From the NCBI GenBank assembly GCA_016936455.1, contig JAFGXV010000062.1:1-64000 (forward strand): 64,000 nt of DNA, written 5' to 3'. Source of the DNA: Desulfuromonadaceae bacterium. GTDB lineage: Bacteria; Desulfobacterota; Desulfuromonadia; Desulfuromonadales; Desulfuromonadaceae. Of the stretch, positions 48,561 through 62,002 are shown one piece after another. The translations under genes were made by a program, and so were the position numbers. Below the pieces are notes generated by a model that saw only the letters and a list, made by a program, of their open reading frames with translations, was not told where the DNA came from and did no database searches. The stretch's first letter is position 1; each line of letters opens with the position of its first letter.

Positions 48561-49823
48561 ATGAATCGAGACAATTACATCGAACGCGGCAGCCGCGATT
48601 ACCAGCGCGCCAACCTGGCTCTGTTTATCGCCGGATTCGTCTCTTTTTCGACGCTCTACGCCTTCCAACCACTGTTCCCGCTGCTGGTGGAGGAATTTTC
48701 CGTCGCCCCGGCTACCGCCAGCCTGTCATTGTCTGTTGCCACCTTTGCCCTGGCCTGGATGCTGCCGATTTCCGGTTCCATCTCCGACAGCACCGGCCGA
48801 AAAAAACTGATGGGCCTGGCCCTTGTCCTGACCTCGTTGCTGTCGCTGGCGTGCGCGGCCAGCACCGTACTGCCCTCCCTGTTGCTGGTGCGCCTGCTCC
48901 AGGGTATCGTACTGGCCGGGGTGCCGGCGGTGGCCATGGCCTACCTCAACGATGAAATGTCAGCCCGCGCTATCGGGCCGGCCATGGGACTCTACATTGC
49001 CGGCAATGCCTGCGGCGGCATGACCGGCCGCATTCTGACCGTACTGCTCGCAGATCTGTTTCCGTGGCGCACGGCCGTCGCCCTGCTGGGTGTGCTAGCC
49101 GTGCTGCTGAGCCTGCTGTTCTGGTGGCTGCTGCCGCCGTCACGCCACTTTCAGAGCCAGCCCTTTCAGCTGAAACCGCTCTCCCTCTCCCTGATCAACC
49201 ACCTGCGCGAGCCGGGGCTGCTGAGCCTGTTCACGCTGGCGTTTCTGTTCATGGGCGGTTTCGTCACGGTATACAACTATGCAACCTTCTATCTGCTGGC
49301 GCCCCCCTACAACCTGAGTCCCTCCCAGGTGGCTCTGATCTTCTTCGCCTACGCCTTCGGCGCTGCCGGATCAAGCCTGATGGGCGGGCTGACACAGCGC
49401 ATGGGGCGGCCGCTCCTGCTCGGCATCGCGCTGGCCATCATGGCCGCCGGCATCCTGATGACCCTTTATGCCACCCTGCCAGCCATCATCGGCGGCATCG
49501 TCCTGTTTACCATTGGCTTCTTCGGCGCCCACGCCTTGGCCTCGGCCTGGGTCGGCGTCCGCACACCGGTTGCCCGCGCCCAGGCCTCATCACTGTATCT
49601 GCTGGCCTATTATCTGGGTTCGAGCATCTCAGGAACCGGTGGCGGCTATGTCTGGAGTTTCTGGGGATGGCCCGGGGTGGTGGGACTGGTGGTGATTCTG
49701 CTGGCGCTCGCGACCGGCGTGACCCTGTTTCTGACGCGGCTTGAAGGGCGCACGCGACAGGTGGAGACGGATCAGCAGCTCTCCTCGGAAAATTTACGCG
49801 CCAGATCGTTATCGATCAGATAA
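48561..49823 (+). CDS. MFS transporter (YnfM-like)
   Basis: The 420-residue protein has about twelve membrane helices and the MFS loops SGSISDSTGRKKLMG and MSARAIGPAMGLYIAGNACGG, a layout like YnfM/arabinose-efflux carriers. The start at 48561 follows GGATGGACGG; the extra upstream frame is non-membrane. Divergence from the LysR gene predicts control by it. Its 3-prime end overlaps that of the second prkA gene by 52 bp on the opposite strand. Confidence 0.87.
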   Translation: MNRDNYIERGSRDYQRANLALFIAGFVSFSTLYAFQPLFPLLVEEFSVAPATASLSLSVATFALAWMLPISGSISDSTGRKKLMGLALVLTSLLSLACAASTVLPSLLLVRLLQGIVLAGVPAVAMAYLNDEMSARAIGPAMGLYIAGNACGGMTGRILTVLLADLFPWRTAVALLGVLAVLLSLLFWWLLPPSRHFQSQPFQLKPLSLSLINHLREPGLLSLFTLAFLFMGGFVTVYNYATFYLLAPPYNLSPSQVALIFFAYAFGAAGSSLMGGLTQRMGRPLLLGIALAIMAAGILMTLYATLPAIIGGIVLFTIGFFGAHALASAWVGVRTPVARAQASSLYLLAYYLGSSISGTGGGYVWSFWGWPGVVGLVVILLALATGVTLFLTRLEGRTRQVETDQQLSSENLRARSLSIR

Positions 49824-52090
49824 ATGCAAACTTCCTTGGCACCGAGCTTGGAATACTTGTACTTCTTGCACAGATTTTCCATCAGAAAGGTCACGTCCGC
49901 GCGGATGCGATTATCATAGGTCTTGAAATCCGCGGTATCATAATCCTTGATACCGCGCCGGAAATTCTTGTTATCCAGAAACGGCTCCAGCACCTTTTCC
50001 TTCAGATGATGCACATAGCGCTCATGGAGGCTGTCGTAGAGATGGGTCTCGATCAGGTCCTTACCCTCCAGCCGCAGCTCCTGGGTCAGGGTCCGGCCGG
50101 CATACTCCTTCTGCACCGTCTGCCGGAATTTCTGTTGTGTCTCCCGGTCACTGGCCTCATCCAGCAGGTGACGTTCGATCGGCGCGAAAAAGGGTTCCGC
50201 AATCTTGAGGCGATCCCCGGTATAGGGGCAGGTGACATCCGTTCCCGACTCGAAGTTGACGGCAAAAATGTAGTTTTTCAGATCCCGCGCGATCTGCTCC
50301 TCGTTGTAGTAGTAGAGCGCCTCTTTGACTTCCTGCAGGATGGTGTAATTGTACATGTGCAGTAACGCATCGAGAAAACCCTCCGGAATCAGCTTCGACC
50401 ACTCCTCGTGCTTGGTAAAGAAACGGCACAGCGTCGCCATGTCGATCATGCTGCCCTCTTTAGCACAACTGGAAAACAGCTCACTGAAAATACGGATGGA
50501 GTCCCGCCCGGAAAATCCGCTCTCACCTTCGTTTTCCGACTCGGAAATAATCCGCCGCCGGCGCTCTGCGGTCAGGCGCTTGCGATCCGCCTGCTGCAGC
50601 CATTCGGGGATGTTGCCGGTATAGATTTCCATCTTCAGCAGCTGCAGTTTTTTGTCGCAGTAACAGCTGTAGCGGCCGGGATGGCCGATCCATTCCGACA
50701 GCGCCGGCGAACTGGGATTGAGGCGGGTCGAAATGATGATGCGGGCAAAGTTGTGCAGCACCCGCGGCAGGAAGAATTCATCGATGTGGCGGCCGAAGGT
50801 ATTGCGATAAATTTCGACCTCGGTACGCAGGTCGAGCACGTACGGCACCTTGATATATTCAATCCGGTCTGAAAGGGACGGCAAATCCCGGATACTGTTT
50901 TCATCCTCCGGGTTCATCAGCGCCAGAAACAGGGAATTGACCCGCTCTTCGATGTATTCGACCTTGTGGATACCTTCACTGATAATATTGTGCAGCTCCA
51001 GCAACCGCTCGACATTGTGACGCTTGATATCCATCAGGGCGTAGACGCCATTATTGGTTTTGGCAAAATTGGAGAACACGTACTGTACCTGGTTGCTGTC
51101 GCGCAGCAGGCCGTTGATGCGCCTCTGCAGCATGTCGTTACCAAGGACGTTCTGCTTGAGCACGCGGTCGCCAGGGTTGTAGACGCTGATGCCTTCACCC
51201 AGCCGTCGGTTGAAGCGGTAATGGCGGGCATAGAGCATCTGCAGCACCTTCATCGGATCTTTGAGCCGGCTGAGCAAGGCTTCGTAAATGGAGGTGCAAA
51301 TGGTGCAGGGGGTCTCACGGAATACCCACTCATACTGCTTTTCGGTAAACAGTTTCCACTTGATTTCATCATTGGTGAACAGGTCATCAAAGAACGAGCG
51401 CCGATACTCACGCGGGATCATCAGGATCGGGCTGTCGTGACTCGGGCAGGGAACCTCGATATAGCCTTCACGATGGAACAGGTTGCGCTGGGCCTCCATC
51501 AGGGCGCTCTCCCGCAGCTCGGACACATTCAACAGTTCTTCCACCAGCAATTCACCGTCCTGCTCCCCAAAGCTGCTGAGCAGATTTTTGTCCAGCCGCC
51601 ACACCGCTTCGAAGGTGTGGCCGCTGGGGCTGTTGACATAGTGCTCGAATTTGCGCAGCAGATTGTCGAGGAAAGTACTCTTGCCGCAACCGTGGGGGCC
51701 CTTGAAGATGTAAATCTTGTTCTGCTGAGCGCCGCGACGGAAATTTTCCGCCAGTTGCACCAGACGGTTGCTAAACAGGCGGTCAGCGAAAAACGGATGG
51801 TCCGCACCCTCGATGAACAACCGGTGTGTGTCATAGTAGGCATAGTTGATCGACTCGGGATCGCCCTGATATTCGTCAACCCCCGCTTCGACATAAGCGT
51901 AGATCATGTCGTGAAACACCTGGAAGATATTGCGCACCATGTGAGTCGGGTCCGCCACCGCCCGTTCCAAATAGGTCCTGAAGGGGATGGCCTGAGCTCC
52001 CGAGCCATCTTGCTGCCCACGGGAAAAACGCTGCATCGCGTTGTCGATATGGCCTCCCCGCTCCGTTACGGGATGCATGCTATGCGGCAT
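49772..52090 (-). CDS. Second, divergent PrkA-type AAA+ protein
   Basis: The 772-residue protein has a P-loop GPHGCGKS near residue 130 and the helical/zinc-like PrkA-type regions, but differs from the classical PrkA at 55154. The N-terminal part (about 1-120) is not shared, and the central Cys-containing RETPCTICTSIYEALL and RYSCYCDKK stretches are distinctive. A predicted Walker-B-like NNGVYALMDIK follows. It is the last gene of the prkA/yeaH/spoVR cluster and overlaps spoVR by 11 bp. Kinase or ATPase-driven remodelling is possible; its role is unassigned. Confidence 0.8.
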   Translation of the reverse strand: MPHSMHPVTERGGHIDNAMQRFSRGQQDGSGAQAIPFRTYLERAVADPTHMVRNIFQVFHDMIYAYVEAGVDEYQGDPESINYAYYDTHRLFIEGADHPFFADRLFSNRLVQLAENFRRGAQQNKIYIFKGPHGCGKSTFLDNLLRKFEHYVNSPSGHTFEAVWRLDKNLLSSFGEQDGELLVEELLNVSELRESALMEAQRNLFHREGYIEVPCPSHDSPILMIPREYRRSFFDDLFTNDEIKWKLFTEKQYEWVFRETPCTICTSIYEALLSRLKDPMKVLQMLYARHYRFNRRLGEGISVYNPGDRVLKQNVLGNDMLQRRINGLLRDSNQVQYVFSNFAKTNNGVYALMDIKRHNVERLLELHNIISEGIHKVEYIEERVNSLFLALMNPEDENSIRDLPSLSDRIEYIKVPYVLDLRTEVEIYRNTFGRHIDEFFLPRVLHNFARIIISTRLNPSSPALSEWIGHPGRYSCYCDKKLQLLKMEIYTGNIPEWLQQADRKRLTAERRRRIISESENEGESGFSGRDSIRIFSELFSSCAKEGSMIDMATLCRFFTKHEEWSKLIPEGFLDALLHMYNYTILQEVKEALYYYNEEQIARDLKNYIFAVNFESGTDVTCPYTGDRLKIAEPFFAPIERHLLDEASDRETQQKFRQTVQKEYAGRTLTQELRLEGKDLIETHLYDSLHERYVHHLKEKVLEPFLDNKNFRRGIKDYDTADFKTYDNRIRADVTFLMENLCKKYKYSKLGAKEVCIYLIDNDLARKFSEESC

Positions 52091-53711
52091 CTGGCGTCAC
52101 CACCTCTCTGCTGAACACGCGCTCGTGCATGGAATAAACAACCCGGGTCCAGCTCACGGCCGGCGTCTCGGCAGGGTCACTTTTTTCACCGCTGGCAGCC
52201 ACCCTGGCTTCACTGGTCTCCAGTTTTACCCCATTCCCCCACAGGTATTCGATGCCAAGCAGGGTATTGGCGATATACTCATTGACCAACGGCTTGCCCT
52301 CGAAGCGATGAGTGAGATAGAGCGCGCCGTTGCGGGATTTTTCCCGGTCCACCTGAATCACCGGCGGATGGTAAAGTGAAGAAAAAATCATGTCGCGATA
52401 ATCGGCCGCCTTACGGCTGCGGACATAGTACTCCCACACCATACGCTCCTTGTTGAGGCGCTCCCCGGCGACAAACAGGCGATGGGCATCGATAAAATCC
52501 TGATCGACAAACTGGCTGATAAAAGTGAAATCGCAGAAATCTTCGCGAATCTTAAAAATCCGCTCATGGCCGAGACCGGTGGCCCGATCGTACCGACGGC
52601 GCTGCTCACGGTCGCGCATCCGGTTGAAGGCGTAATCGTAGCAGCCCCGATCCGCCTGTTGCTCAATATGGTAGAACAGGCGCATCCCCAGGGCATAAGG
52701 ATTGAGACCAACGCGCGGCATGGCTGTCACCCCTGCGTTGACCCGGGCAAACTCCACCTCGTGGCCACGGATGCGATCATCCTGCAAAAAAAGGGTCTCG
52801 TGCCAGTAGCTGGCCCAGCCCTCGTTCATGATCTTGGTCCGGATCTGCGGCTGAAAATAGATGGACGTGGTGCGGATGATCTCCAACACCGACTTCATCC
52901 ACTTGTTTTCGTCACGGTTCAAAAACGGCGACTGGTCCATGAGAAACTGCAGCAGATCAAGGCTCGGCGCCGAGCGCTCGCGCAAAAACTTCTCGAAACA
53001 GGCGTCAAATTCGGGATACCGCTGCTGGACCTCTGCAAAAAAGATCTCTTCCCCCAGCGGTTCCTGCTGAGCGACGCAACGATTAAACCGCTCCAGCTCC
53101 TTTACATACTCGCGGGGCTGAACCTTCTTCACCGACTGCAGAAACACATCAAAATAGTAGTTCAGCCGCGCGGAACAACCGTTATCGATGCGGTTGAAAC
53201 GCGCCAGCTCGGCATGGTAGCCCACCAGATTGTCGATGCCGCGGGCGAACTCAATGACGTAGTCAACCCGGCGGCCATACTCGGAACGCAGACGGGAAAT
53301 CAAGCGTTTGTCGGCCAAAGCCCGGCCGCATAGATCATATTCCCACGTGTGGCGGAAATAGAGATTGTTCTGGAAAAAATCGATGTGCCCCAGCACATGA
53401 TAAAAAATCATGACATTGAGCCAGTCGGGATTATTGTCGTTATAGAAGGAAATCGCCGGCCGGGTATTGATCACCGTTTCGTAGGGATTGGAGGGATAGA
53501 GTTCGTACTTGCCACTCTCGCGCAGCACCTCGACATCATGCACCCAGTAATCGTACAGGGTCGGGATCATGTTCTTCGGCATCAGTTCGATCATGTCGCG
53601 GTTGCTGACAATGTACTCCAGGCTCTCCTTGTCGAAACACAACCCGGCATCGAGCGCCCGCTCCTTGCAGCCTTCCATGATGCGCTTGGTTTTCTGGTCG
53701 ATCAGTTGCAT
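52080..53711 (-). CDS. SpoVR family protein
   Basis: The 543-residue protein matches the SpoVR family, with a characteristic WLNVMIFYHVLGHIDFFQNN section that has His and Asp residues typical of that family, followed by NEGWASYWHE and RVGLNPYALGMRLF. SpoVR has no settled function; it almost always goes with PrkA and YeaH/YhbH. The start follows GGGGAG. It lies 51 bp after the YeaH-like gene and overlaps the second prkA-type gene. Confidence 0.9.
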   Translation of the reverse strand: MQLIDQKTKRIMEGCKERALDAGLCFDKESLEYIVSNRDMIELMPKNMIPTLYDYWVHDVEVLRESGKYELYPSNPYETVINTRPAISFYNDNNPDWLNVMIFYHVLGHIDFFQNNLYFRHTWEYDLCGRALADKRLISRLRSEYGRRVDYVIEFARGIDNLVGYHAELARFNRIDNGCSARLNYYFDVFLQSVKKVQPREYVKELERFNRCVAQQEPLGEEIFFAEVQQRYPEFDACFEKFLRERSAPSLDLLQFLMDQSPFLNRDENKWMKSVLEIIRTTSIYFQPQIRTKIMNEGWASYWHETLFLQDDRIRGHEVEFARVNAGVTAMPRVGLNPYALGMRLFYHIEQQADRGCYDYAFNRMRDREQRRRYDRATGLGHERIFKIREDFCDFTFISQFVDQDFIDAHRLFVAGERLNKERMVWEYYVRSRKAADYRDMIFSSLYHPPVIQVDREKSRNGALYLTHRFEGKPLVNEYIANTLLGIEYLWGNGVKLETSEARVAASGEKSDPAETPAVSWTRVVYSMHERVFSREVVTPDAA

Positions 53712-53762
53712 AACACTCCCCGCTCACGCGATGTCTCAGCAGGCTGGTTCAACGGTCTACCC

Positions 53763-55145
53763 TCAATCAGCCACCAGACGCCGGATGCCCTCGATGAGAC
53801 GCTCTTCCGCCGCATCCTCACTCAGGGTATCAAGACGCAACAGCTCTTTTGCCTGGTCGAGCAAGCCCGATTTTCTCAGGTAGCGTTCCAGTTCGGTCTG
53901 GCCCGATTTCACGTAACCGTGCTCGGCCAACGTGATGCCGACGCGGCTGGCGTAGCTCAACATTTTTTTCAGCTCGGGCAAGGTCTCCTGTCCTTCGCGA
54001 TCCCAGTCGTCACCATCGGTCCCATGGAACACATAGATATTGTACTCGGCGGCCAGTTTATTCTGCTCAACGACACGGTTGATCAGCTGATAACCGGCGG
54101 CGACCTTCGTGCCACCGGCGACGCGCAGATTATAATAGGTGTAAAAGTCCGCCACTTCCGTGGCATCGGTATCATGGAGAATGAAACGGGTCTCCACTTG
54201 GCCGCCGTACTGATAAAGCAGCCAGCTGTAGATCAACACGTGCTGGGTCACCACTAGCTCCGTGGCCTTACCGGCCATGGAGCCGGAATAGTCGCGAACA
54301 AAAAACACCAGAGCCTGGGATTCGTAGTCTTTTTCCGGCGAGAGGATGCGATAGATCTTGTCCTTGGGCGCGATGAGAAACTGGCTGGGATCAATGGCGT
54401 CAGTTGCGGACAGCCGCTCCAGGCCGATGTTGGTATTGAGAATCTGGCGCAGGGTGGCCTTCTTGTCGAGGACCTGGCCAAAACCGCGGTTGCGGTCGGT
54501 CAGGTCATAGGTATAGCGCGTCAGTGAGCGTTTTTTGCCCTTTTCCTTAAGATTGGGCAACTGAAACTTTTCCGTCAGAATGCGCCCGAGCTCATAGGCA
54601 TTGGCCTCCAGCTCATGGGAACCGCCACGTCCCTGACCGGCGCCGCTGCCCTCCCCCTGACCGGCCTCGCGCACCGGCTGCTCACCAATAACCTCGCCTT
54701 CCTCGCCATCGCCCTGACCACCGCTACCGCCACCGGACTCCTGCTCATCCAAAAAACGGTTGTCATGGAGCAGCTTCTCCTCCACCGTCGTCGGCACCAC
54801 CACCACGCGGTTCTCCCGCCCCTTGCGCGGCTTGATCAGCTTACCCACCTTGATCTTGCGCGGAAAGCCATCCTGTTCGCGCAGACGGTCGCGTTCCAGC
54901 AGATCATCAAGCGTCCGCAAAAAACTGATCCGCAGCCCGGCCTCCGGCATCCGGCCCGGCAGCAGGGAAAAGTCGCGGTCGCCGTAGAGCTGTTCCTGTG
55001 CCGAAGCGCCTGGTGCTGCCGTCGGCAGCGGCAGCACATGACGCCTCCCATCCTGCCGTTCCGTTTCTATAGCAGTGCGATCAGGAGCCAGCCTCCCCTG
55101 TTCCTTCAGCAGCTGATAGTACGTCTCACGCCCGGAGTCCGACAT
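53763..55145 (-). CDS. YeaH/YhbH (DUF444) vWA-type protein
   Basis: The 460-residue protein has a Gly/Glu-rich low-complexity stretch (about 136-180) and a C-terminal von Willebrand A-like domain with a MIDAS-type DYSGSM motif and TDATEVADF. It fits DUF444/YeaH. It is 8 bp downstream of prkA and probably is its partner, as in E. coli yeaG-yeaH. Its biochemical role is unknown. Confidence 0.9.
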   Translation of the reverse strand: MSDSGRETYYQLLKEQGRLAPDRTAIETERQDGRRHVLPLPTAAPGASAQEQLYGDRDFSLLPGRMPEAGLRISFLRTLDDLLERDRLREQDGFPRKIKVGKLIKPRKGRENRVVVVPTTVEEKLLHDNRFLDEQESGGGSGGQGDGEEGEVIGEQPVREAGQGEGSGAGQGRGGSHELEANAYELGRILTEKFQLPNLKEKGKKRSLTRYTYDLTDRNRGFGQVLDKKATLRQILNTNIGLERLSATDAIDPSQFLIAPKDKIYRILSPEKDYESQALVFFVRDYSGSMAGKATELVVTQHVLIYSWLLYQYGGQVETRFILHDTDATEVADFYTYYNLRVAGGTKVAAGYQLINRVVEQNKLAAEYNIYVFHGTDGDDWDREGQETLPELKKMLSYASRVGITLAEHGYVKSGQTELERYLRKSGLLDQAKELLRLDTLSEDAAEERLIEGIRRLVAD

Positions 55146-55153
55146 GGCTCACC

Positions 55154-57226
55154 CTAACCCTCGTCATCCTGAGTGCAGAAATACTCGATGGTCTTCTGCG
55201 CGCAAGTGCGGCAGTAACCGAGCTGGTTAAGCATGGTATCGATCATGCGGTCGTAGAGTTTCTGGTTTTCTTCGTTGGTGCGGTTGGCCAGCGCGCCGAC
55301 CAGGGAGCCGGCGCCGGCGATATCGGATTTGAGCCGCACATCGGTCACCGCCTTGACCAGTTCGAGGTTGTCCATGAAGTCGTAACCAGCATCAAGGGAG
55401 ATCTTCTGGCCGTAGATCTTGCGGATGGCAGTGCGGAACGTCTCGCGCTGCTCCTCGGTCTTCAGGCCGAGACGGTCTTCGACACTCTGGATAAAACGCG
55501 GATCAATCTTAAGCGCCTTGAGTTCGTTGGTCTGCGGATCGCGATATTTCCACATCTTGTCGGCGCCGAGATTCTCGGCATCGATGCCGATGATCATGTT
55601 GACATAGTTCATCACATCCTTGCGGATGGCCTGGGGCTCGTCCATGTAGGCGTTGAACATCTCAGTCATGATGCGCTCGCGGTAAAGTCGGCGGGCAAGC
55701 TTGAGATCATCGAGATACTTGGCGCGGTCGTTGTTGTCAGAGACATAGTCGAGAATGACCCGCTCCAGGGCATGGAAGATATCGTAGGCGAACATGCAGC
55801 GGCCTTCGTTGGTCTCGGTACTTTCCACCAGCAACTGCAGAGCGCGGCCGAGATTGCGATGCCCCAGTCCTTTCTGGCCGAAACGCTTGGTGATATCCGG
55901 TTCCTGGTTGAGCAGATCAATCACCTCGGACAAGGTCTTGATGCTTTTTTCGCCAGCCACCTCGCCCGCGGCCAGCTTGAGGGTTTCGATAGGCGTCAGT
56001 TTCTCGCTGCGCGGCAACCGCGTCAGCACCACGCCGACGCTGGCGGCATAGTTGAGGTTGGGATCCTGGTGCAGATCCTGGCCCGTGAGGGTAGTTTTGG
56101 TCTCGCTGCCGATGGCGTAAGCCGTCAGCTCCTTCTGCATCAGGTAATTGGTGTTGTGGGAGAAATAACAGATGCGACAGCGATCGATGATCGGCGCTTC
56201 CTCCTTCTCGGCCAGGAAACGGTTGAACTCGGCGTTATTGCTGGTGGCGATGATCAGGGTGTCGATGGGCCATTTAAAGCCGTCCATCTCAATCAGGCGG
56301 TTCTGAATGACCCCGAGGTAAACCTGCACCAGATCCTTCTTGTTCTTGTAAATCTCGTCGGAAAAATGGATGCCGCCACCGGCCACGCGTGCCAGGGCAC
56401 CGCGGCGCAAATCGAAGCGGTAGGGATTGTTGGTGTCGCTGATGTGCAGCAGGCGCTGGATCGATTCCTCACCGAGCAGATCCACGGCGCTGGAGGTAAT
56501 CTTGTCCTTGGCCGCATATTTTCCGGTGACAGTGCCCAGACTTTCCGTCAGTGGCACCGGAATCACCTCCACGTGTTTGAGCACCTCATTGAGCTTGCCA
56601 TCGCAATGCTGGTACAACTCGTTGAGCATGTAGGCGGTGCAGGCCCCCAGAGGGCGGTAGTCGTCAAAAAAGGTTTCGATCTGCCCATCGCTGAAGCCAT
56701 AGGTTTTGGCCAGCAGTTCCATACTCTGCTCGCGGGTCTCGCCCAGGTTCATGGCCAGGACCAGAGGATCTTCATAGGTCTGGGATTCAATCTGCGCGAT
56801 CTTGCCGTAATGACCGAGCTGATCCATGCCGACAAAGCGGAAGGTGTAACGGCGATTCTGCGCCTGGGCCAAAAAATCGCGGTACTTCGCACACAGATAC
56901 TCGACAAAAAAGGTTTTGCCGTTGCCCGGCTCGCCGACCAGCACGTACGCCATCTCTTTCGACGAGCCGCCTTCGGCCGCATCCTTGACAAAAGAAACAA
57001 AACTGTTGATCTCGTCGTACATGCCGATGGCGTGTTTACGCCCGGTGCGAAAGATGCCGAAGTCGTAGGTTGACTTGCCATTGACCACGACTTTGTCGAT
57101 GGGCTGCGACAGAATCATGCGCGCCACGGACTGAAAGGCATTCTCGAACCGGCGCTCGCCCTGCTTGACGGCTGTTAAATGTGCGGCTAGTGAACCATCC
57201 TCTTTTCTGCTTCTCGCCTGTGCCAT
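55154..57226 (-). CDS. prkA: PrkA serine protein kinase/AAA+ protein
   Basis: PrkA has an AAA+ domain (P-loop GEPGNGKT near residue 85) and a C-terminal kinase-like domain. The 690-residue protein has GGGIHFSDEIYKNKKDL as the Walker-B region and IIATSNNAEFNRF as sensor-1. The end carries CRTCAQKTIEYFC, an unusual Cys-rich tail. GGAGGAAGG precedes the ATG at 57226. Homologues respond to starvation or sporulation. It is the first gene of prkA-yeaH-spoVR-prkA2. Confidence 0.93.
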   Translation of the reverse strand: MAQARSRKEDGSLAAHLTAVKQGERRFENAFQSVARMILSQPIDKVVVNGKSTYDFGIFRTGRKHAIGMYDEINSFVSFVKDAAEGGSSKEMAYVLVGEPGNGKTFFVEYLCAKYRDFLAQAQNRRYTFRFVGMDQLGHYGKIAQIESQTYEDPLVLAMNLGETREQSMELLAKTYGFSDGQIETFFDDYRPLGACTAYMLNELYQHCDGKLNEVLKHVEVIPVPLTESLGTVTGKYAAKDKITSSAVDLLGEESIQRLLHISDTNNPYRFDLRRGALARVAGGGIHFSDEIYKNKKDLVQVYLGVIQNRLIEMDGFKWPIDTLIIATSNNAEFNRFLAEKEEAPIIDRCRICYFSHNTNYLMQKELTAYAIGSETKTTLTGQDLHQDPNLNYAASVGVVLTRLPRSEKLTPIETLKLAAGEVAGEKSIKTLSEVIDLLNQEPDITKRFGQKGLGHRNLGRALQLLVESTETNEGRCMFAYDIFHALERVILDYVSDNNDRAKYLDDLKLARRLYRERIMTEMFNAYMDEPQAIRKDVMNYVNMIIGIDAENLGADKMWKYRDPQTNELKALKIDPRFIQSVEDRLGLKTEEQRETFRTAIRKIYGQKISLDAGYDFMDNLELVKAVTDVRLKSDIAGAGSLVGALANRTNEENQKLYDRMIDTMLNQLGYCRTCAQKTIEYFCTQDDEG

Positions 57227-57397
57227 TGACCTTCCTCCCATGGCTATCACTTCTGCGGTGTACCAATACCAGCTGAACAGGATCGTAATAACAGGATGCT
57301 GAAAAAACCCCATCCGGAAACTTTTTTCAGTATAGCCGCTTTTGAGGGAATTGCAGCGCAGGGGAAAAATCTTGCCTTATGACGGGCGGCCGGACAC

Positions 57398-57457: not shown

Positions 57458-58369
57458 TCAGGCGCTCGCCTTGATCGCCTCAACCAGCTCGGCCAGCACG
57501 CGATCGGCATCAGCATAGGGCACCTGACAGGTCCCGACCGCCTTGTGGCCGCCGCCGCCGTATTTGAGCATCAGGGAACCGACATTGACGTTGGAGGTGC
57601 GGTTGAGCACGCTGTAACCGACGGAGATGGCAACAAACTCCTTGCCACGGCCATCGATGAGGCGAATGGAGATATTGGTGTCGGGAAACAGGGAATAGAT
57701 CAGAAAGCGGTTGCCCGGTGGCAGGTCGGTCAAGCCGCGGGCGTCGGTAATCGCCACCGGACCGTCAACGCGGGTATGCTCTTGCAAAAAGGCTTTACAG
57801 CGGGCATCGTTTTCGTAATAGAGATTCACCCGTTCCTGCACATGGGGATTCGCCAGAATCTCCTCAATGGTCTGGGTGCGCATGGCCTCCATCAGTTCCT
57901 TCATCAGCTGCAGATTGCTGATGGTGAAACTCTTGTGATAGCCGAGGCCGGTACGGGGATCGCAGAGAAAACCGAGCAGTACCCAGCCGGTGGGATTGAG
58001 AATCTCGTCTTCGCTGAGCTGGGCGGAATCGACGCGGTCAACATATTCGAGCATGCTGTCGAATTTCTTCAGCCGCGCATCCTGATAGTAGTTATAGATC
58101 ACGCGAGCCGCGCTGGGGGCGGATTCACTGCGCCCCTGATACTGGCCCTCAAGCTGCAGCCGCTCCTTCTCGCTGGAATGGTGATCGAACCACAGACCGC
58201 AACCCGGAACATAGGGCACGTTGGCCAGCACATCGTCGGCCGAGACCGCAATCTTGCCGTCCTGCAAATCCTTGGGATGGGCGTACTCCATCTCCTCAAT
58301 CACGCCCAGCTCCTTGAGCAGCGCGGCACAGACAATACCATCGAAATCAGAACGGGTCAGCAAACGCAT
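57458..58369 (-). CDS. DHH-family phosphoesterase
   Basis: The 303-residue protein has RSDFDGIVCAALL, a WFDHHSS motif and the DHHA1-type GGGGHKAVGTC end, typical of DHH/DHHA1 phosphoesterases (exopolyphosphatase-related, nanoRNase or c-di-nucleotide-type enzymes). The metal-binding Asp and His appear conserved. No nucleotide-specific cue separates the options. AGGAGG precedes the ATG. It stands between prkA and the radical SAM fusion gene. Confidence 0.88.
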   Translation of the reverse strand: MRLLTRSDFDGIVCAALLKELGVIEEMEYAHPKDLQDGKIAVSADDVLANVPYVPGCGLWFDHHSSEKERLQLEGQYQGRSESAPSAARVIYNYYQDARLKKFDSMLEYVDRVDSAQLSEDEILNPTGWVLLGFLCDPRTGLGYHKSFTISNLQLMKELMEAMRTQTIEEILANPHVQERVNLYYENDARCKAFLQEHTRVDGPVAITDARGLTDLPPGNRFLIYSLFPDTNISIRLIDGRGKEFVAISVGYSVLNRTSNVNVGSLMLKYGGGGHKAVGTCQVPYADADRVLAELVEAIKASA

Positions 58370-58459: not shown

Positions 58460-61400
58460 TCAGGAGGCCAAACGTTCTGCCAGCCTCTTACTTGCCGAAG
58501 GCGACAGTGGACAGCCCCCGCCCAGGCATTCCTGATTCAGATGTTGCTGACGACAGACCCGCGTGTCGCCAGCGATCAGTGGCCGGGGCAACACACTCAG
58601 CGACAGCTCGGCCGCCGCCTGCAACGCCACCACGCAATCGCGTTGACAGCAGCGCGCGGCCCTGAACTGCGCCAGACGAGCCAGCACTTCCTGCACCAGG
58701 GTCTGCACCTGCTGGCGCTCATCCGCCGTCAGCGGATTGGCCTGCAGAATCAGGCTGAAGGCGATACCGACACCGACGGCAGCACCGCAGACACCGTTGA
58801 AGGCACAGCTGCCACCGGCAATCTTCGCGCCACGCTGTAAGGCCGTCTCCAGGGCAGTGTCGGGCAACTCACCGCCGCTGTTGCGGTAACAGATTAGAAT
58901 CAGTGCCGGCATCAGGGCATGGTACTGGGGACCGTGCAGCGGGATGGCCGGATGGCGACAGATGCGATAGAACAGCGGCAGCAGTTCCGTTTCCCGCGCA
59001 CTGCGACACAGGTGTTCGATGGCAACCAGCGCATCCTCGCTATGGCAGCTATCGCAGACGAAATGGCCCTGCTCGCAGTTCACGGAGCTGATAAAGGTCT
59101 CACCACAGTAACTGCAGACACAGGGTGCGCTCTCGGCCCGATAGTGCAACGGCGCACCACAGACCATGCAGCCGCTGAACTGGCGCGCCGCAGGCGGAGC
59201 TTCGTCGTTCTGGAGGGCAGGAATGGCGCAGTTGCAGCTGTAGATGAAGGCGATGTTCTCGACAAAGCCCTGGGCATCAAGACGATAGAGCTGATCGCCG
59301 GCAGCCAGAGCCTGGGCCAGCGGGATCTCGGTCACCTGCCCCGGCGTTAGAACCAAACCGTCGTCCAGATGGATGGCGGCGAAAGGCCCCGGATACATCA
59401 CGCGCACGCGCTGGTCGTTGCTGGGCAGTTGCGGCTTGCGGGCGGTAAAGGTCAGGGAGAAAAAGGCATGCTGCTGCACCTGGCGGTAGGGCAGCCGCTT
59501 GAGGCTGGCCAGGGCATCAAAGCCGCTCTCATGCAACAGGCCCATCAGGTCTTTCTGGGTCAGGGCACCGGCAATACACTCCCCGCGCAGCACCTCGTCG
59601 TTGCGGATGGCGGCGTCGGGCTCGGTTTCGCACACCACGTCCGCCACCACCAGGCGGCCGCCCGGTTTGAGCACCCGCAGCATCTCGGCAAACAGCCGCC
59701 GCTTGTCAGCGGAAAGATTGAGCACGCAGTTGGACAGGATCAGGTCGATGCTGTTGTCCTCAACGGGCAGGACTTCCAAATAGCCCTGACGGAAATCGAG
59801 GTTGGCATAACCGAGATTCTGCGTAACACCCTGTTGCCCCTCACGCGCCAGATTGAGCATCGGTTCGAGCATGTCGACCCCGATGACCCGACCACTGCGA
59901 CCGGTCAACCGCGCGGCAATAAAACACTCCACGCCACTGCCGCAGCCGAGGTCGAGAATCGTTTCCCCCGGTTGAATCCCGGCATCCAGCACCGGGCTGC
60001 CACAGCCATAACCGCGGAAGCGGTAGGCCGGGGGAATATGGCTGACGATATCAGCCTCGTAGCAGACCGGATTGAGAATCTCCTCCTTGCTGTCGCCCAC
60101 GGCCGCAGCGTAGAAATTCTTCACCACGGAACGGCTGTCTTCGTGAGTCAAAGACAGCAGACAGTTGGAATGCAGGAGTGCCACCTTGCCGTGCGCGCCG
60201 CAGGTTTCCAGCACGTCACCCATCTTCAGGCGCAGCGCCGGTTCATCCAGGTCCGCCTGCTCTGCGGCCTTCTCGACAATCAGATCCAGCGCTAGCTGCT
60301 CATACAGCGGCAGATAGGGATCGGCGCCGACGAAACGCTGACCATGGAGATAGCTGTGGTCGAGGTCGCCGCCACCGAGGATGAAACGCCACGGCGAATC
60401 CAAATCGCGGCAGCTGCCGTGACGAATCTGTTCCAGCACCGCGCTGGAACGCCAGGCCGTCGCCAGTCCATGGGTCAGCGGCGTGGCCAGTTCCGCCACA
60501 TCGACCAGCGCCGCCGAGGGGTAGAGCCGGTCATCGGGACCGATAGCCAGAGAGTCCCAGCCGCTGCCGCTACCGTCATGAATCGTGCCGGGCGGAGCGA
60601 AAATCTGGGTGCGCAGGGCATCCAGATTGTCGAGGGTCATCCCATGCTGTTGGGCACGCCGGCGGGCCTCGGTCAGAGCCGCGGCGATGGCGGGCACAGC
60701 GGCAAACTGCTCCTGCTCGCCGCGGCCACGAATGAAATACCACATGAAATGGACATTGGCGGCGCCCCACTCGGCGGCGAGATCGACAATCGCCGGCATG
60801 TCGGCCACGTTATCGCGTTCCACGCACATGGACAGGGTAAAGGGCCAGCCCTGCTCGCGCAGCCAGCCCAGCTGCTGGCGTAGCCGGGCAAAGCGTCCGG
60901 CACCACGCAGGGCATCATGGCGTTGCTCCAGGCCATCGACACTGATCTGCAGATGAAAACGGCTGCGATCCCAGTCGGCCTGTGCCAGCTGCTGTTGCAA
61001 CGTCATGCCATTGGTCAGCACCGCCACATGGGCGTGGGGTTGAATCAGAATATACTGGACAATGGCATTGAAATCGGGATGGACAAAGGGTTCGCCACCC
61101 GTCAGGGCAAACACGCGGCAACCCAGCACCAGCGCCTCATCCACCCGTCGGCGAATCTGGGCAAATGACAGCTCGGCCCGACTGTGGGCATCGGACGAAA
61201 ACAGGCAGTGCTCACAGCTCAGGTTGCAACGATTGGTAACATGCAGCCACAACTCGTTGAGCTGGCGCGTCTCCAGACAGGCGGACCGCCCGGGATAGTC
61301 CGTCGGCTCCTGAGAAGGAAGGCGTTGAAGAAAACGCTGCTCCGCCATGGTCAGGGAGGACGCCGGGCGCTCGGCCAGTTGCTGCAGCAACCGATCCCCC

Positions 61401-61498
61401 GCCGAGGTCGGTACAAACCAGTGAGGCAGATCGGAACGAAGATAAACAGGCAGGCCCCGGTACTCAAGGCGCTGCCACAGGGAAAGATCAAAAGACAT
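58460..61498 (-). CDS. Radical SAM / ArsM-like methyltransferase / DUF5714-type fusion
   Basis: This 1012-residue protein joins three parts. A radical SAM domain (about 80-330) has Cys91, Cys95 and Cys98 in CNLSCEHC and GGEP at 134-137. An ArsM-like methyltransferase (about 460-680) has motif I ILDLGCGSG at 514-522. The three cysteines typical of arsenite methyltransferase are at Cys499 (GYGCGSP), Cys591 (SNCVLNLS) and Cys641 (GECIAGA). A Cys-rich end (about 775-1000) has zinc-ribbon-like pairs (CMVCGAP, CSYCGE, CDSCHS) and GGSCAFNGVCGAAVGVG, a DUF5714-type sequence. A SPASM cluster is absent. The substrate is unknown; arsenic methylation is only one possibility. Confidence 0.85.
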   Translation of the reverse strand: MSFDLSLWQRLEYRGLPVYLRSDLPHWFVPTSAGDRLLQQLAERPASSLTMAEQRFLQRLPSQEPTDYPGRSACLETRQLNELWLHVTNRCNLSCEHCLFSSDAHSRAELSFAQIRRRVDEALVLGCRVFALTGGEPFVHPDFNAIVQYILIQPHAHVAVLTNGMTLQQQLAQADWDRSRFHLQISVDGLEQRHDALRGAGRFARLRQQLGWLREQGWPFTLSMCVERDNVADMPAIVDLAAEWGAANVHFMWYFIRGRGEQEQFAAVPAIAAALTEARRRAQQHGMTLDNLDALRTQIFAPPGTIHDGSGSGWDSLAIGPDDRLYPSAALVDVAELATPLTHGLATAWRSSAVLEQIRHGSCRDLDSPWRFILGGGDLDHSYLHGQRFVGADPYLPLYEQLALDLIVEKAAEQADLDEPALRLKMGDVLETCGAHGKVALLHSNCLLSLTHEDSRSVVKNFYAAAVGDSKEEILNPVCYEADIVSHIPPAYRFRGYGCGSPVLDAGIQPGETILDLGCGSGVECFIAARLTGRSGRVIGVDMLEPMLNLAREGQQGVTQNLGYANLDFRQGYLEVLPVEDNSIDLILSNCVLNLSADKRRLFAEMLRVLKPGGRLVVADVVCETEPDAAIRNDEVLRGECIAGALTQKDLMGLLHESGFDALASLKRLPYRQVQQHAFFSLTFTARKPQLPSNDQRVRVMYPGPFAAIHLDDGLVLTPGQVTEIPLAQALAAGDQLYRLDAQGFVENIAFIYSCNCAIPALQNDEAPPAARQFSGCMVCGAPLHYRAESAPCVCSYCGETFISSVNCEQGHFVCDSCHSEDALVAIEHLCRSARETELLPLFYRICRHPAIPLHGPQYHALMPALILICYRNSGGELPDTALETALQRGAKIAGGSCAFNGVCGAAVGVGIAFSLILQANPLTADERQQVQTLVQEVLARLAQFRAARCCQRDCVVALQAAAELSLSVLPRPLIAGDTRVCRQQHLNQECLGGGCPLSPSASKRLAERLAS

Positions 61499-61639: not shown

Positions 61640-62002
61640 TCAATCTTTTTTCGCCTGCGCTTTCAGGGCGGCAACCTCGTCATAAACTGCCATCAGGCCC
61701 TCGGCCCGAAAGCAGCAGGAACGGACCCGGCCCTGCTGGTGGGCCACCTGCCAGTCGATCACTTCCACGTCCTTGCGCACCGCGCGGCTGAATCCGGGTT
61801 CGCCCAGGGCCAGCAGCGCCTGCCACATCTGTTCCATATCCAGCAGCTCGAATGAAGTCACCTCTTCCTGCTGCGCACGGCGGTTGATAAAATAGTCCAG
61901 CAGCTCGTACTGCTTCGGGCCGGCGTCCTGCTGCCAGCAGATAAATGCATGCTCCGGTTGGCGCTGCGCCGTGATGGCGCTGACCAGTGTTTCACCTTTC
62001 AT
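61640..62002 (-). CDS. Hypothetical 120-residue protein upstream of the fusion
   Basis: The product is mixed alpha/beta in feel, with a Cys pair (RSCCFRAEG) and no membrane segment. It begins MKGETLVSAIT behind a GGGG-type site. It lies 141 bp upstream of the fusion gene on the same strand, so co-transcription is plausible. No family is recognised. Confidence 0.6.
   Translation of the reverse strand: MKGETLVSAITAQRQPEHAFICWQQDAGPKQYELLDYFINRRAQQEEVTSFELLDMEQMWQALLALGEPGFSRAVRKDVEVIDWQVAHQQGRVRSCCFRAEGLMAVYDEVAALKAQAKKD

Follow-up and report, generated by a model that had tools for sequence, protein, structure and literature searches.

Domain architecture of the fusion protein

The window is a stretch of 64,000 nucleotides (positions 1 to 64,000 of contig JAFGXV010000062.1) from a Desulfuromonadaceae bacterium. 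Its reverse strand carries a single intact gene with a frame open over 1012 codons, encoding a protein of 1012 amino acids whose start is kept, with homologues aligning from Met1. A Pfam scan placed Radical_SAM at residues 87-240 (71 bits), a class I methyltransferase at 509-659 (118 bits) and DUF5714 (PF18978) at 827-998, the last with 171 bits against a gathering cut-off of 26.2 (Table 1). The original prediction of one polypeptide combining radical SAM, ArsM-like methyltransferase and DUF5714-type parts was borne out by Pfam and NCBIfam, and its coordinates and cysteine numbers were correct. The complete CxxxCxxC site that it had described consists of C91, C95 and C98, and these cysteines, together with C499, C591 and C641 of the methyltransferase, were all invariant in 23 homologues. 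The zinc-ribbon pairs read in the Cys-rich tail were found as the CxxC pairs 777/780, 795/798 and 815/818, which were invariant in the same 23 homologues, as was C808. For structural comparisons the fusion was modeled with AlphaFold2 (mean pLDDT 77).

Two features of the surrounding DNA were recorded. A DHHA1-type gene (57458-58369, reverse strand) flanks the fusion and is common to close relatives only. An operon at 49772-57313 on the same strand was recognised from sequence alone; its genes are one of VWA type, one that is SpoVR-like and two large ones that resemble ATPases, by eye of the PrkA type.

Table 1. Features of the fusion gene, in window coordinates
Feature	Position	Strand	Basis
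Whole gene, radical SAM-ArsM-DUF5714 fusion	58460..61498	-	ORF, Pfam, NCBIfam, homologue alignment
PqqD/RRE-like N-terminal domain, aa 1-75	61274..61498	-	Fold alignment to CteB 5wgg and TigE 8vpo; PqqD score of relative G073
Radical SAM core, aa 76-260	60719..61273	-	PF04055, 71 bits; fold matches
CxxxCxxC [4Fe-4S]/SAM site, C91, C95, C98	61205..61228	-	Sequence; invariant in 23 homologues
Cys-less SPASM-like region, aa 305-420	60239..60586	-	YPS and GGGDxD where G073 has YPC and CGGGC
Linker with invariant C433, H436, H443, C446	60134..60211	-	Homologue alignment; low model confidence here
ArsM-type methyltransferase, aa 456-690	59429..60133	-	NF008823, 213.6 bits; 5evj, E 3e-36; CrArsM, Z 26.6
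Cys499, equivalent of ArsM Cys72	60002..60004	-	Alignment; invariant
Cys591, equivalent of ArsM Cys174	59726..59728	-	Alignment; invariant
Cys641, equivalent of ArsM Cys224	59576..59578	-	Alignment; invariant
ArsM-like C-terminal subdomain, aa 690-745	59264..59431	-	Structure alignment to 5evj and 4kw7 reaches residues 742-743
Cys-rich ribbon-like segment, aa 755-831	59006..59236	-	Invariant CxxC pairs; NF045648 MbdU match 770-997
DUF5714, aa 827-998, C-x5-CGAAxG and CC motifs	58505..59020	-	PF18978, 171-176 bits

Relationship of the radical SAM half

The CxxxCxxC motif lies in a partial TIM barrel, which places the first half of the protein in the radical SAM superfamily, and many core residues besides the motif were invariant in the 23 homologues. 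Among NCBIfam models, this half scored best with those for Rv1681, mycofactocin MftC, NirJ and PqqE-like proteins. In the model, the segment from residue 1 or 6 up to 419 aligned with CteB (5wgg; Z 26.6, 390 residues aligned), and TigE (8vpo) likewise matched up to residue 419, the N-terminal domain being included for both. The fusion therefore shares the fold of CteB/PqqE-type radical SAM-SPASM enzymes over residues 1-419, but despite this alignment the cysteines for the SPASM auxiliary clusters were absent from all 23 homologues, each being replaced (YPS, GGGDxD).

With the ArsS model TIGR04167, the fusion domains reached about 57-62 bits at most among the matches listed, against a cut-off of 300 bits. 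This score is generic, at the level of unrelated radical SAM proteins. The Pfam scan also found no DUF3641 in the fusion, the domain in which real ArsS ends, and orthology of the radical SAM half to ArsS was rejected on these two grounds. ArsS and the fusion are alike in their CxxxCxxC motif and in their gene partners, and in distribution they almost exclude each other. They share no significant full-length similarity, and in place of DUF3641 the fusion has a PqqD-like N-terminus and a SPASM remnant. A TrsS/DVU_1556-type system was likewise rejected, the fusion gene scoring about 53 bits against the 490-bit TrsS cut-off.

Relationship of the methyltransferase half

The top NCBIfam model for the second half was the arsenite methyltransferase NF008823, which matched residues 471-672 with 213.6 bits, below a cut-off of 263 bits that is set for the whole protein. 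The best sequence matches in the PDB were CrArsM, CmArsM and AS3MT, and C499, C591 and C641 aligned with the cysteines of the ArsM GCG, SNCV and GEC motifs. The methyltransferase model superposed on ArsM crystal structures (CrArsM: Z 26.6, 261 residues, 6.3 Å rmsd), whereas the best non-ArsM methyltransferase structures gave only about Z 20. A further cysteine, C479, was present in 21 of the 23 homologues and is a candidate for the counterpart of the fourth, N-terminal conserved cysteine of ArsM (Cys44 in the algal protein); it borders a stretch of low model confidence (468-478). Fold, SAM motif, the three cysteines and the C-terminal subdomain are thus common to ArsM/AS3MT and the window protein, which differs from them in being fused and in scoring under the NF008823 cut-off. 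Judged by profile, cysteines and modeled fold, the methyltransferase part is ArsM, as had been proposed, and the first part of the outcome named beforehand as contrary evidence, a clearly better score with non-ArsM methyltransferases, was seen neither by profile nor by fold.

In a phylogenetic tree, the fused methyltransferases formed one clade (100/97) outside the clade of detoxification-type ArsM (split 99/99). They fell on the side of the ArsMs from genomes with ArsS, with a weak joining branch (65/90).

Distribution of the fusion family and co-occurrence with ArsS

Dozens of full-length homologues, about 43-71% identical, were found across Desulfobacterota-type anaerobes. A scan of named bacterial genomes gave 26 loci of the family, nearly all full length and 50-71% identical, and almost all of these came from Desulfuromonadales and other Desulfobacterota-type MAGs. 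The fusion was present in about two dozen of the genomes of 58 relatives and in 31 of 395 genomes in an evenly drawn sample of the phylum, a count that includes one gene split over two frames. Because full-length homologues occur in many genomes, the fusion represents a real family, and a gene-calling artefact, against which the original prediction had warned, is excluded. In two draft genomes the gene was spread over two or three frames by breaks or stops (G006:C20:7837-10721 and G008:C74:1269-4233). Two other genomes had a second full-length copy, 43% identical (G007:C3:205227-208268 and G009:C1:3130273-3133296), each with a TIGR04282-like gene at a distance of about 3 kb. A selenoprotein reading was rejected, as the placeable TGAs reported inside homologues were the genes' own terminal stops near residue 1000.

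Canonical ArsS was found in 119 of the 395 genomes, and only a single genome had both ArsS and the fusion (Fisher p = 1.8e-4). The glycosyltransferase family TIGR04282 scored over its cut-off in 30 of the 31 genomes with the fusion and in 113 of the 119 with ArsS, compared to 44 of the 246 with neither. Since species are not independent, the association was evaluated by permutation within families and gave P = 6e-5. Among the 44 exceptions, at least four (G264, G273, G315 and G333) were fusion genes interrupted by a contig end or a frame break. Of 32 fusion genomes, 10 had TIGR04282 no more than about 5 kb from the fusion; for ArsS, a hand count gave a distance of about 10 kb or less in at least 35 of 113.

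The neighbourhoods of full-length homologues, a survey of which had been suggested as a check on the fusion, were found to contain the partner genes of ArsS. Genes for TIGR04282, TIGR04283, TVP38, a MerA-like FAD oxidoreductase (FADox) and DUF3047 recurred beside both the fusion and ArsS. For example, the fusion in G271 is divergent from TVP38-FADox-DUF3047-TIGR04282-TIGR04283, and the gene order in G428 is ArsM-ArsS-FADox-TVP38. The context of the fusion is accordingly of the ArsS type, with TIGR04282/TIGR04283 glycosyltransferases, for which 'arsenosugar glycosyltransferase' is an annotation name. Raw neighbour counts over the 36 fusion loci that were compared overstate the rate, because some of these loci were chosen for a nearby glycosyltransferase; the coordinates from the 395 genomes are free of this bias. 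In the genome to which the window belongs, the glycosyltransferases sit on other contigs.

Single proteins in which the TIGR04282 and TIGR04283 glycosyltransferases are fused were observed at G065:C14, G248:C102, G103:C36, L206 and L208. Genes of a taurine/sulfonate-type ABC transporter adjoin the fusion at L105:10761-13492 and L098:6656-12303, with a permease weakly like SaoP and a binding protein weakly like SaoX.

Other fusions of radical SAM and ArsM domains

The original prediction had assumed that families known for arsenic use separate radical SAM and ArsM proteins. Fusions of the two have precedent, and therefore this premise fails. PMC12124457 cites a paper (Yang et al. 2024, Environ Sci Technol 58:19266) whose title presents an 'ArsSM fusion protein' as an arsenic methylation enzyme. 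Going by that title, the ArsSM protein resembles the window protein in that one chain of a sulfate-reducing bacterium holds both a radical SAM part and ArsM, and differs in that the window protein has the extra Cys-rich/DUF5714 tail. In our own sample, canonical ArsS and ArsM were fused in proteins of 676, 685 and 692 aa (L199, L200 and L201, in G147:C7, G419:C60 and G184:C1, respectively). The order was ArsS-ArsM in G147 and G419 and ArsM-ArsS in G184, and these are apparently separate fusion events. Like the window protein they join ArsM to a radical SAM partner, but that partner is a true ArsS, the chains are shorter (676-692 aa) and DUF5714 is missing.

A distant relative was found in G073, where an open frame of 849 aa encodes an rSAM/SPASM-ArsM protein that aligned to residues 12-690 of the fusion with 28% identity (E 2e-84). 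The region aligned to the N-terminus of the fusion scored as Pfam PqqD, and the methyltransferase was 64% identical to an ArsM adjoining ArsS. In contrast to the window protein, the G073 protein keeps the SPASM cysteines and a PqqD domain and is without DUF5714, and it seems to represent an earlier step in the formation of this fusion. The family described here is new in its non-ArsS radical SAM module, its SPASM region without cysteines, its DUF5714 tail, its breadth and its pattern of replacement relative to ArsS.

The Cys-rich and DUF5714 tail

Nearly all DUF5714 domains in the order to which the window belongs were part of the fusion, and elsewhere DUF5714 was found also as a protein of ~250 aa. 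The tail overlapped the model NF045648, 'metal-binding double selenoprotein MbdU', with 100.9 bits against a cut-off of 600. When the isolated DUF5714 model (pLDDT 83) was compared to the PDB, there was no convincing match (best Z 3.9), and a literature search for DUF5714 yielded nothing. Relatives of 801-865 aa without DUF5714, about 51-52% identical, were found in a single genus of the Desulfovibrio family, and some of them end in a short CCCG tail instead. This genus has genomes of 4.2-4.7 Mb with 64-69% GC in the stretches read, and its family also includes a MAG named Desulfovibrio sp.; the G511 fusion was 100% identical to L023. The genus would fit the Solidesulfovibrio that reportedly features in the ArsSM work. 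The DUF5714 tail is dispensable in relatives, being absent from these shorter proteins and from the G073 protein.

Proposed function and alternatives

We consider it reasonably probable that the fusion is a one-chain enzyme for the biosynthesis of an organoarsenical of the arsenosugar type, replacing ArsM and ArsS by first methylating arsenic and then using radical chemistry to form a C-As bond. The mutual exclusion with ArsS, the shared TIGR04282 and the shared neighbourhood point the same way, and ArsM has become fused to radical SAM partners more than once (ArsS-ArsM twice, ArsM-ArsS once). What the data show is the architecture, the ArsM relationship, the shared context and the mutual exclusion; both reactions, their order and the product we infer. 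The ArsM domain would bind As(III) via Cys499, Cys591 and Cys641 and methylate it with SAM, probably to dimethylarsenite by homology to ArsM. The radical SAM domain would reductively cleave a second SAM at the [4Fe-4S] cluster of C91/C95/C98, and the 5'-deoxyadenosyl radical could then be joined to the methylated arsenic in the manner of ArsS, which adenosylates arsenic (PMC12159101); this step is suggested by gene context rather than by sequence. The TIGR04282 and TIGR04283 glycosyltransferases would finish the product. The role of the Cys-rich/DUF5714 tail is the weakest step: this optional accessory would likely provide a site, thiol or metal in nature, to hold arsenic or give reducing equivalents, a guess based on its invariant cysteines.

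Several observations count against such a one-chain enzyme. Its radical SAM module is not ArsS, with DUF3641 missing and a generic ArsS score, 44 genomes have TIGR04282 and neither enzyme, and the glycosyltransferases of the window's genome are on other contigs. In addition, a PqqD-like N-terminus is typical of peptide-modifying enzymes, and the arsenosugar role of TIGR04282 and TIGR04283 is taken from their annotation.

The complete ArsM domain, the lost SPASM cysteines and the naming of the published ArsSM, in its title, as an arsenic methylation enzyme would all be in keeping with a plain arsenic methyltransferase that makes only mono- or dimethylarsenite and in which the radical SAM half is regulatory, structural or leftover. 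A dead radical SAM domain, however, does not fit with the invariance of CxxxCxxC and many core residues in 23 homologues, nor with a co-occurrence that tracks the arsenosugar glycosyltransferase, and we regard this explanation as unlikely. The radical SAM domain could instead add a group other than deoxyadenosyl to arsenic, such as 3-amino-3-carboxypropyl as in ArsL, a sugar or a lipid part. Its module belongs to the PqqE/CteB/MftC/NirJ-like group and not to ArsS, and ArsL is a non-ArsS radical SAM enzyme that alkylates arsenic (PMC8552651), but the glycosyltransferases shared with ArsS suggest the same intermediate, which makes a different C-As chemistry rather improbable.

A sulfur-rich small molecule or peptide, considered beside a metalloid in the original prediction, found little support as a substrate, whereas a metalloid-related role was supported. 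The PqqD-like fold raised the idea of a RiPP-type maturase, in which this domain would bind a peptide and the radical SAM and methyltransferase parts would modify it, and the closest folds to residues 1-419 are indeed the RiPP maturases CteB and TigE, N-terminal domain included. The methyltransferase nevertheless retains the arsenic-binding cysteines, and among the loci inspected no conserved small precursor-like gene was found beside the fusion; the sole small upstream gene in the window (61640-62002, reverse strand, 120 aa) had no Pfam or NCBIfam match and is common to close relatives only. RiPP maturation was therefore rejected as highly improbable. Equally remote is the handling of another metalloid or metal (Se, Te, Sb, Hg) by a similar thiol-based mechanism, to which the sub-cut-off MbdU overlap of DUF5714 and the two loci with transporter genes of weak SaoP and SaoX score might point, against the ArsM-specific cysteines and the association with the arsenosugar glycosyltransferase.

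If the fusion does replace ArsM and ArsS, its radical SAM half may be, as we suggest with some hesitation, an arsenic-adenosylating enzyme independent of ArsS that arose from a PqqD-radical SAM-SPASM ancestor by loss of the auxiliary clusters. Methylarsenite would then pass directly between the sites from ArsM in the same chain, guarded by the Cys-rich DUF5714 module. Many anaerobes that seem to be without ArsS (31 of the 395 sampled genomes of the phylum) would in that case start the arsenosugar pathway with another enzyme, one that standard annotation would overlook. It would mean that radical formation of C-As bonds with methylated arsenic has originated twice, would offer a case of toxic-intermediate channelling within a single protein, would bear on the makers of organoarsenicals in anoxic sediments and paddy soils, and would give DUF5714 its first functional setting. 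Stand-alone DUF5714 proteins were also observed (L122-L134), some of them next to recurrent proteins of 80-120 aa (clusters c30, c31 and c87).
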